A stretch of 64,000 bases of DNA from Acidobacteriota bacterium (GTDB taxonomy: Bacteria; Acidobacteriota; Terriglobia; Bryobacterales; UBA6623): positions 496,001 through 560,000 of the forward strand of contig WGMB01000004.1 in NCBI GenBank assembly GCA_016125275.1, in the 5' to 3' direction. This document shows positions 52,054 to 61,407 of this stretch, in pieces; positions within the stretch are counted from its first letter, which is position 1, and every line of letters starts with the position of its first letter. Under the pieces are notes generated by a model. The model was not told the DNA's origin. It searched no databases and saw nothing but the letters and a program-made list of their open reading frames with translations. The position numbers and the translations under genes were made by a program.

Positions 52054-53532
52054 TCAGACAACCGGCGCGATCAGCTCCGCCAAGCGATTGGCCGCGGCGT
52101 GCCAGCCCGTATCGCGCTCCGGCTCATAGCGGTGCAGCTTGAAGGAGCGCCTGACGACTTCCCGAGCCTGCGCCAAGTCGCTCACGCGGCCGAGCCCCAT
52201 GGCCTGCACCAGGACGTTGCCGAGGGCCGTGGCTTCCACGGGACCGGCGACGACCTCCACGCCGCAGGCATTGGCGGCGTATTGGCACAGTAGGCGGTTC
52301 TGGGAGCCGCCGCCCACGATGTGCAGCGTCCGTGGCGTGCGGCCGGTGATCTCCGCCAAGTCGGCCAGCGTCAGGCGGTATTTGAGGGCCAAGCTCTCGA
52401 AGATCGCCCGGCCGAACTGCCCCGGCGTCTCGGGCGATGGCTGCCCCGTGCGCTCGCAGTAGTCCCGAATCCGCTGCGGCATGTCGCCGGGAGCCACGAA
52501 GCTCGGGTCGTCTACATCGAGCAGCGTCCGGAACGCCGGCGCCGCTTTCGCCCCAGAAATCAGCTCTTGGTAGGAGATGTCGGCCCCTTGCCGAGCCCAC
52601 TCTCGCCGACACTCCTCCACCAGCCACAGCCCGCAAATGTTCTTCAGCAGCCGCGTTGTACCGGAGACGCCGCCCTCGTTGGTGAAGTTCTTGGCCAGCG
52701 TCGTCGTCGTCACCACGGGCTCGGGAAGCTCGACGCCCAGCAGCGACCAGGTCCCCGAGCTCACGAAGGCCCAGTCGGCGTCCTGGGCTGGCGTAGCCAC
52801 TACCGCCGAGGCCGTATCGTGCCCGCCCGGCGCCACCACCGTCAGGCCATCCAGGCCGACTTCGTGGGCCACGCTGGGCCGCAAGGCGCCGAGCTGCGTG
52901 CCCGGCGGCACGATGTCTTGCAGGATCTTCGTGGGCAGATCCAGGCGCTCCAGGAGGCCCCGAGCCCAGCCCCGCGTGCGCGGATTGTAGAACTGCGTGG
53001 TGGAGGCGTCGGTCAGCTCGCAAACCTTCTGCCCGGTGAACCAGTAGTGGAACAGGTCCGGGACCATCAGCAGCGCCTCGGCCGCCTCCAGCGCGGGCGT
53101 CCCTCGCATGGCGCAGAGCTGGTAGAGCGAGTTGATCTCCATGAACTGCAAGCCGGTCGACTCGAAGATCTCCTCCCGGGGGACCCTCTCGAGCGCGGCC
53201 GCGAGCTGACCGTTCGTGCGCGCGTCGCGGTAGCAGTAGGGGTTGCCGATGAGCGCGCCGGTGCGGTCGAGCAGCGCGAAGTCCACGCCCCAGCAGTCCA
53301 CGCCCAGGGCCACAGGGTTGCGCTGCGCCGCGATGCGCACGCCGCTGAGGATCTCCTGCCAAAGCCGCAGCACGTCCCAGTGCAGGCTGTCGAGAGTCTG
53401 GACGCTGAGATTGGGGAAGCGGTGCAGCTCTTCGAGCTCGATGCCGGCGCCGTCTAAGGCTCCCAGCATCACTCGGCCGCTGCCGGCTCCCAGGTCGATC
53501 GCAAGATAGTTTTCGCGGGCCGCCACGGCCAC
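52054..53532 (-). CDS. rhaB: rhamnulokinase
   Basis: 492 aa, FGGY kinase. ATP-binding start AIDLGAGSGRVML; DCWGVDFALLD, FMEINSLYQLCAM, GGHDTASAVVATP (phosphate) and HIVGGGSQNRLLCQ (adenosine) are RhaB-like. Phosphorylates L-rhamnulose. No rhaA or rhaD in the window; a fucose-isomerase-like gene is about 4 kb away. Start GTG 53532, but GTG 53526 is an equal candidate: a GACAAT at 53535-53540 leaves 8 bases to it. Confidence 0.92.
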   Translation of the reverse strand: MAVAARENYLAIDLGAGSGRVMLGALDGAGIELEELHRFPNLSVQTLDSLHWDVLRLWQEILSGVRIAAQRNPVALGVDCWGVDFALLDRTGALIGNPYCYRDARTNGQLAAALERVPREEIFESTGLQFMEINSLYQLCAMRGTPALEAAEALLMVPDLFHYWFTGQKVCELTDASTTQFYNPRTRGWARGLLERLDLPTKILQDIVPPGTQLGALRPSVAHEVGLDGLTVVAPGGHDTASAVVATPAQDADWAFVSSGTWSLLGVELPEPVVTTTTLAKNFTNEGGVSGTTRLLKNICGLWLVEECRREWARQGADISYQELISGAKAAPAFRTLLDVDDPSFVAPGDMPQRIRDYCERTGQPSPETPGQFGRAIFESLALKYRLTLADLAEITGRTPRTLHIVGGGSQNRLLCQYAANACGVEVVAGPVEATALGNVLVQAMGLGRVSDLAQAREVVRRSFKLHRYEPERDTGWHAAANRLAELIAPVV

Positions 53533-53618: not shown

Positions 53619-54590
53619 ATGGCGCTGGCTTTTCACGACGTTCGCTGCGAGGTGAACGACATTCTCATCGAAGCGGATTTCGCTGTGCCCTCGGGCGCGG
53701 TGATCGGCGTGACCGGCGCCGAGCCGGCCGAGCTGCAGTTGCTGGCCGAGCTGGCGGCGGGGTCGGTTCCGCCCGAAGAGGGCGAGATCGAGCGCTCGTC
53801 GGTCTTTCTGGCCGCGCCGACGTTCCATTCGGCGGACGTGGAGGCGGTGGAGTACTGGACCGACGCCGCGTTGGAGTCCGCCGCGGAGACCCTGATCCTC
53901 GGTCCTTGCCTGGCCCTCACCAGCCGCTTCTACCGCGACTGGGCTTGGCGGGAGATCCATCGTCTGGCGCGCCAAGGGCGGTTGGTGATCGTGGTTTCCC
54001 AGGACCACGAGACGCTCGCTCGACAGACCGATGAAGTCCTGATCTTCGACGAGGGCTCGCTGGCCTTGCGCGGCGAGCCCCGCGAGACCCTCGCGCGCTA
54101 CGTGGAGATGGTGGCGGAGGCCCAGCGGGAGGAGGCGGCGGAGGCAGGCCTGCTCGAAGACTTTCCGCGCCACGGCGACGGGCGCGCCGAGCTCGTCAGC
54201 CTCGAGTTGCTAGGCGACGAGGGCCGCTCGACGGCCACGCTGCAGAGCGGTGAGGTGGCCGCCGTGGAGATCCGGGTTCGCTTCGAACAGGACGTGGCGA
54301 AACCCGTCGTCGGCATCTTGCTGCGCAATCGCATCGGAGTCTCGGTCTACGGCACCAATACCGAGCTGGAAGGTCTGGAGCTCGGGCCTCGCTCGGCCGG
54401 CGACGAGTTGACGGTGCGCTTCGAGTTCCGCGCGGATCTGTGTCCGCAGGAGTACACGCTCACGGCGGCCTGCCACGATCCCGACGGCACGGCGCACGAT
54501 TGGCTCGAAGAAGCTTTGCTGTTTGCCGTGACGGATTCGCGGCACACCGAAGGCGTTGCGAACCTGCGGGCCAAGGTCAGTTTCTCCTGA
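53619..54590 (+). CDS. catalytically dead ABC ATPase-like domain fused to Wzt-type carbohydrate-binding domain
   Basis: 323 aa. Residues 1-165 follow an ABC ATPase fold (GAVIGVTGAEP at the Walker A place, ETLILGPCLAL at Walker B, VVSQDHE at the H-loop) but with key residues lost: no GKS/T in the P-loop, no LSGGQ signature, no DE after Walker B, Gln instead of the switch His. Residues about 188-320 look like the Wzt C-terminal beta-sandwich that recognises O-antigen ends (GILLRNRIGVSVYGTNTELEG). No transmembrane partner adjoins. Probably a glycan-sensing or assembly protein; it might stabilise an O-antigen or EPS exporter. Confidence 0.75.
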   Translation: MALAFHDVRCEVNDILIEADFAVPSGAVIGVTGAEPAELQLLAELAAGSVPPEEGEIERSSVFLAAPTFHSADVEAVEYWTDAALESAAETLILGPCLALTSRFYRDWAWREIHRLARQGRLVIVVSQDHETLARQTDEVLIFDEGSLALRGEPRETLARYVEMVAEAQREEAAEAGLLEDFPRHGDGRAELVSLELLGDEGRSTATLQSGEVAAVEIRVRFEQDVAKPVVGILLRNRIGVSVYGTNTELEGLELGPRSAGDELTVRFEFRADLCPQEYTLTAACHDPDGTAHDWLEEALLFAVTDSRHTEGVANLRAKVSFS

Positions 54591-60874: not shown

Positions 60875-61195
60875 TCAGTCGATACGGATTGCTTCGCCGG
60901 GCCCGATTGCCTCGAGTGCCCGCAACGCAGCCGGAGCGAGGCCCTTCAGATCAGCAAGGCGATTGGTGGGAGCGTGCAAGATCAGGATCGAAATCCGGCG
61001 CAGCTCCAGATTCTGCTGGTACGGGATCGCCTGATCCGTCGTCACCATTACTTCGAAACCCGCGGCTTCCGCTGCGGCCAGCAGGACCCCGTTCTTGATA
61101 CCCGACAGCTTTGCGTAAGCCGCTGTTTGGCAATCGTGCCCAGCGAACGCGTGCCGGAGCCGCTGATCGATGCACTCATCCAGCAGGATGCGCAT
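60875..61195 (-). CDS. DUF5615 PIN-like toxin
   Basis: 106 aa. Begins MRILLDECIDQRLRHAF with the acidic pair that starts DUF5615/PIN-like nucleases, then VMVTTDQAIPYQQNL with the second Asp set and ISILILHAPTNRLADL. A probable ribonuclease toxin. ATG 61195 overlaps the antitoxin stop (TGATG). The longer frame to 61225 is within the antitoxin gene. Some active-site residues are conserved but activity is inferred. Confidence 0.85.
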   Translation of the reverse strand: MRILLDECIDQRLRHAFAGHDCQTAAYAKLSGIKNGVLLAAAEAAGFEVMVTTDQAIPYQQNLELRRISILILHAPTNRLADLKGLAPAALRALEAIGPGEAIRID

Positions 61196-61407
61196 CAGAC
61201 ACGGGCCAATCGGAGCTGTTTGCACTCCTCTAGGACCTGGACGGCGAGCTCTCGGCTGATCGTCGGAAACCCTTCCAGAAAGTCGTCGAGCGAATCGCCG
61301 TTCTCGAGATAGTCGAACAGGGTCTGCACGGGCACGCGAGTACCGCGAAACACGGGCGTCCCGTGCATCACTTCAGGGTCACGCGTGATAGGAGCCTGCG
61401 GACTCAT
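61195..61407 (-). CDS. DUF433 antitoxin
   Basis: 70 aa. ITRDPEVMHGTPVFRGTRVPVQTLFDYLENGDSLDDFLEGFPTIS is the DUF433 helix-turn-helix signature, a DNA-binding antitoxin paired with DUF5615 or VapC-like toxins. Upstream in the operon, as usual for type II pairs, so it can auto-repress. Small and slightly less GC-rich than the neighbours. Confidence 0.88.
   Translation of the reverse strand: MSPQAPITRDPEVMHGTPVFRGTRVPVQTLFDYLENGDSLDDFLEGFPTISRELAVQVLEECKQLRLARV

Follow-up and report, generated by a model that had tools for sequence, protein, structure and literature searches.

The gene under study occupies positions 53619–54590 (forward strand) of the 64000-nucleotide stretch that we analysed, hereafter the window, and on the basis of its open reading frame and family matches it encodes a protein of 323 amino acids, here termed a pseudo-Wzt. 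The codon-position GC values of the frame (0.73/0.45/0.85) are typical for genes of its own genome. Its neighbours are genes for a rhamnulokinase and a PD40 protein and not a glycan cluster. The former (52054–53532, reverse strand) is divergent from the pseudo-Wzt gene, with 86 bases between the two, and its product is rhamnulokinase-like, scoring just below the NCBIfam rhamnulokinase cut-off. Both neighbours were considered as operon partners and rejected, since neither is conserved around the orthologues described below. Further along the window, at 60875–61225 (reverse strand), a short protein is encoded that, on visual inspection, looks like a DUF5615 PIN-like nuclease.

The sole Pfam match in the protein is Wzt_C (PF14524) at residues 184–315, with an E-value of 8.4e-34, which agrees with the earlier proposal that the C-terminal half is of the Wzt end-recognition type; we assign residues 184–316 (54168–54566) to this carbohydrate-binding domain (CBD). 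By alignments, motif counts and Foldseek comparison, residues 1–176 (53619–54146) correspond to the remnant of an ABC ATPase from which the helical subdomain has been deleted. Searched alone, these residues gave weak ABC matches (best E-value 2e-5). The ABC ancestry of the remnant is clear via its orthologues, as a profile of 18 of them matched the Wzt protein of Aquifex aeolicus over both domains (E-value 1e-37) and four passed the Pfam ABC_tran cut-off, and the ABC descent of residues 1–165, which the initial annotation had left open to challenge, can thus be upheld. In addition, when an AlphaFold2 model of the window protein (two-sequence input; mean pLDDT 60.5, pTM 0.50) was compared with the PDB by Foldseek, A. 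aeolicus Wzt chains ranked first, at low TM-scores, and this predicted model supports an ABC/Wzt fold only when combined with the sequence evidence.

Alignment with intact Wzt proteins bore out the loss of the P-loop Lys/Ser, the Walker B Asp-Glu and the switch histidine that had been claimed previously. The former Walker A loop (residues 33–41, 53715–53741) reads GAEPAELQL in place of GPNGSGKST, the Walker B sequence VVDE is replaced by LILGP, with the Asp-Glu pair now Gly95-Pro96 (53901–53906), and the switch sequence SHD has become SQD, with Gln128 (54000–54002) at the position of the histidine. The ABC signature is also missing, as claimed, with the correction that it was lost through deletion of the helical subdomain, the whole segment from the Q-loop to the signature being gone. 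The hinge residue Tyr233 of the A. aeolicus protein is not kept either, being arginine in most orthologues and Val162 in the window protein, and a neighbouring hinge tyrosine is present in 54 of 61 orthologues. On these alignments the window protein is confirmed as a degenerate Wzt, in which an ABC ATPase remnant precedes an intact Wzt_C domain, and with the residues for ATP binding and hydrolysis absent it is not predicted to be a working ABC ATPase.

A search of the window's contig (C1) with the ABC2_membrane family gave no match, and the description of the protein as a dead ATPase joined to a glycan-end reader with no permease beside it is supported. The same genome does encode two intact Wzt proteins, on contigs C9 and C14, with Wzm (ABC2 permease) genes nearby, the one on C9 lying directly upstream; this answers the question of whether wzm/wzt genes are located elsewhere. 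The Wzm beside the C9 Wzt (L052:10621-11847) carries about 150 extra N-terminal residues before its ABC2 membrane domain. The window protein shares with canonical Wzt (A. aeolicus 7K2T/8DKU; E. coli O8/O9a type) the order of the domains, homology over both of them and the residues of the cap pocket, but differs in having no helical domain, signature, Walker A lysine, catalytic glutamate or adjacent Wzm. It thus descends from Wzt, yet fails two of the defining features, a working NBD and an adjacent Wzm, and therefore should not carry the annotation 'Wzt exporter ATPase'.

The pocket residues can be read against the published complex of the A. aeolicus CBD with 3-O-methyl-mannose, in which Asn313 touches the ring oxygen, His350 contacts the C2 hydroxyl and the cap methyl sits among Leu300, Thr346, Ala348 and Trp362; plain mannose is not bound (PMC9445017). 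By alignment, the window protein has at these positions Leu234, Asn247, Thr282, Ala284, His286 and Trp295. Among these, Asn247 (54357–54359) is the equivalent of the cap-sugar contact Asn313, Thr282, Ala284 and His286 (54462–54476) are those of Thr346, Ala348 and His350 in the methyl-cap pocket, and Trp295 (54501–54503) is that of Trp362, which stacks on the cap methyl (residue roles from PMC9445017). The window protein therefore carries the residues of a methyl-cap-binding CBD. The pocket is kept across orthologues, with Thr346 and Trp362 conserved in 61/61, Asn313 in 60/61, and Ala348 and His350 each in 59/61. The His350 position is occupied by glutamine in all ten canonical paralogues of the closest type, and the pseudo-Wzt pocket is thus not simply the pocket of these paralogues.

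The distribution of the protein was determined in two sets of genomes, one of 41 (its own and 40 relatives) and one of 200 sampled Bryobacterales genomes. An orthologue was present in 17 genomes of the first set besides its own and in about 122 of the second, across dozens of genera, this latter figure being the number of profile matches at an E-value of about 1e-86 or better with one canonical protein excluded; membership of the class was confirmed by reading 61 distinct orthologue sequences. A sample of 396 genomes from across the phylum yielded no match at the level of a pseudo-Wzt outside Bryobacterales, and the one above-threshold match outside the order (G395) had a score and length in the canonical range. 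All 61 orthologues lack the helical domain, the signature being lost throughout the family, and their Walker A-to-B spacing is 0–55 residues vs 104 in ten canonical Wzts. The catalytic glutamate is kept in at most one of the 61, the Walker A lysine in 12 and the switch histidine in 46, and in some genera the NBD remnant is eroded further, the total length falling to 239–248 amino acids. In a tree of the CBD the 61 pseudo-Wzts form one clade (support 98/99), which falls within the lineage of canonical Wzts that contains the C9 copy of the window's own genome.

Loss of the ATPase motifs and the wide variation in remnant length between genomes might be taken to indicate a decaying pseudogene. This reading is hardly credible, given that the matches contain no internal stop in any genome listed in the 200-genome search, that the pocket is near-invariant and that the form occurs across dozens of genera under purifying selection. 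Mean pairwise identity is 0.64 in the CBD vs about 40–45% for most of the remnant, and for close orthologue pairs, with saturated ones omitted, dN/dS values were about 0.04–0.19 in the CBD and 0.05–0.33 in the remnant; these pairs exclude the window copy, whose nearest orthologue is 46% identical. These data show purifying selection in close pairs, stronger on the sugar-binding half. For the family as a whole the pseudogene reading is already refuted, and decay of a single copy is rejected on account of the orthologues and the selection on them: the lost residues are a shared trait of a conserved clade, although intact paralogues exist.

Many orthologues adjoin a gene for a SAM methyltransferase with a C-terminal non-catalytic domain weakly similar to TIGR03437, and many also adjoin a beta-helix gene with a signal peptide read by eye. 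The PDB matches of the methyltransferase are diverse methyltransferases. When the 200 Bryobacterales genomes were searched with the C-terminal part of the methyltransferase, 118 had both genes, four the pseudo-Wzt only, nine the methyltransferase only and 69 neither (Fisher test 2.7e-38, kinship among genomes being ignored); several of the 13 discordant genomes are incomplete. Contrasts are also found within genera, with one genome having both genes and two neither in g6, and two having both and one neither in g39. In 62 of the 118 genomes, as read from match tables, the two genes lie on one contig at most 9 kb apart, mostly divergent and often with the signal-peptide beta-helix gene between them. 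The copy in the window's own genome (contig C18, about 347042-348430) has an intact SAM motif, as do most copies read (motif I, EIGCGPGR). In genus g10, the copy read beside the pseudo-Wzt (genome G022, L051:8219-9298) is without the SAM-binding motif, and here the partner may be a pseudo-enzyme too.

A beta-helix gene, whose product is predicted to be secreted or a lipoprotein, directly adjoins the pseudo-Wzt at L037:6043-9452 and in relatives, an S9 peptidase gene does so in genus g8, and in genome G003 (L034:10205-11170) the pseudo-Wzt orthologue is followed, after 5 bases and in the same orientation, by an intact ABC ATPase gene, a type of neighbour absent beside most other orthologues. 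The beta-helix protein was rejected as an obligatory partner, as its gene is found in 13 of the 18 pseudo-Wzt genomes of the relatives set and is missing from the window's own genome. The dispersed gene locations and the lack of a permease beside the window gene would suit a sensor of glycan precursors that controls gene expression or some other process in the cytoplasm, but family searches found no DNA-binding or signalling domain in the window protein and no conserved regulatory neighbour was recognized around the orthologues, which makes such a role very unlikely. The initial annotation had spoken of a new regulatory or adaptor type; its pseudo-ATPase and reader stand, and the new type itself we infer rather than observe. 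The co-inheritance of the methyltransferase and the intact cap-pocket residues favour a protein that recognizes caps in trans over a generic regulator.

Two further roles were weighed. The pseudo-Wzt could serve the methyltransferase as an accessory or targeting subunit that presents the chain end to it and thereby sets chain length, with no direct contact with any exporter. The methyltransferase is indeed its tightest partner, with shared loci, and the pair is retained in g10 despite loss of the SAM motif, as expected of a structural complex; however, this type of pocket binds the methylated product and not the unmethylated substrate (PMC9445017), and we consider the role unlikely. We attach a similarly low probability to the pseudo-Wzt being a non-catalytic subunit of a canonical Wzm–Wzt, in which strand exchange between CBDs would give a mixed dimer of altered cap specificity. 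In favour of this, the CBDs share homology, and the CBD described in the literature dimerizes by swapping its C-terminal strands (PMC9445017). Of the pseudo-Wzt genomes, 103/122 encode the closest type of canonical Wzt vs 28/78 others, but at an E-value of 1e-40 this type is missing from 19/122, and the pseudo-Wzt is far more tightly associated with the methyltransferase. Moreover, the helical domain of ABC exporters is the part that contacts the permease, and with this part deleted the pseudo-Wzt cannot stand in for an NBD.

Our favoured explanation, which is plausible but falls somewhat short of an even chance, is that this Wzt-derived pseudo-ATPase reads a methyl-capped glycan end independently of ATP and acts with a dedicated methyltransferase. 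The tree and the alignment support a single origin, in which a canonical Wzt would have been duplicated and its helical domain then deleted, leaving a protein without the parts needed for the role of a transporter ATPase. The co-inherited SAM methyltransferase would methylate the non-reducing end of the glycan, and the CBD, with the leftover NBD face, would bind the methylated end, as the conserved pocket residues and the co-occurrence suggest. The pseudo-Wzt would then act in trans, most likely by holding finished chains for, or passing them to, a Wzm–Wzt exporter encoded elsewhere; alternatively, it might mark termination to the polymerase. Wzt descent, loss of the ATPase parts, conservation, the pocket residues and the co-inheritance are supported by our data, and writing of the cap by the methyltransferase, its ATP-free reading and an action in trans on export or termination are the steps that we infer from them. 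Counting against this explanation, the window gene lies outside any glycan cluster with its methyltransferase on another contig, g10 retains the pair though the methyltransferase copy read has lost the SAM motif, and shared ancestry could partly explain the co-occurrence.

There are precedents for both halves of this proposal. Coupling of a methyltransferase to a reader is known from WbdD with Wzt (PMC3482155), and action in trans from a split transporter, in which CBD-truncated WzmWzt regains transport when the CBD is expressed separately (PMC9445017). In that experiment the reader is likewise separated from the working ATPase, but the isolated CBD is an engineered split, whereas the pseudo-Wzt occurs naturally as a protein of its own, is conserved and retains an NBD remnant. 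The chain terminators WbdD of O9a (PMC3482155) and ORF6 of K. pneumoniae O7, which also bears an immunoglobulin-like module (PMC11231755), pair a methyltransferase with a Wzt reader, as here; unlike them, the present methyltransferase has the weakly TIGR03437-like C-terminal domain, and no kinase was found. ABC transporters with a degenerate nucleotide site have similarly lost catalytic residues in one NBD (reviewed in PMC7756269). The pseudo-Wzt is unlike these in that its helical domain is deleted. Transporters of this degenerate-site kind retain the full NBD fold and remain part of the transporter. A literature search found no paper whose title or abstract describes a protein of this kind; as most subscription journals were outside its scope, this counts only weakly towards novelty.

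To our knowledge, Wzt is known to recognize the cap only within an exporter. A protein that has been conserved in nature with its cap pocket but without the ATPase would show that reading of the chain end is useful alone, and it is a natural setting in which to study how a CBD works in trans. The orthologues range from those with a near-intact Walker A to those that lack most of the NBD, and so record the stepwise loss of an ATPase. Among the soil bacteria of one order, the Bryobacterales, the ATP engine of a copied exporter part was lost while its cap reader was kept, and its co-inheritance with a methyltransferase suggests a reader-and-writer pair that would mark chain ends. That this is a lineage-specific pair, in which the methyltransferase caps the end and a protein derived from Wzt reads it in trans without ATP, apart from the motor, we put forward more tentatively; if true, it would be a natural case of cap quality control outside the exporter.
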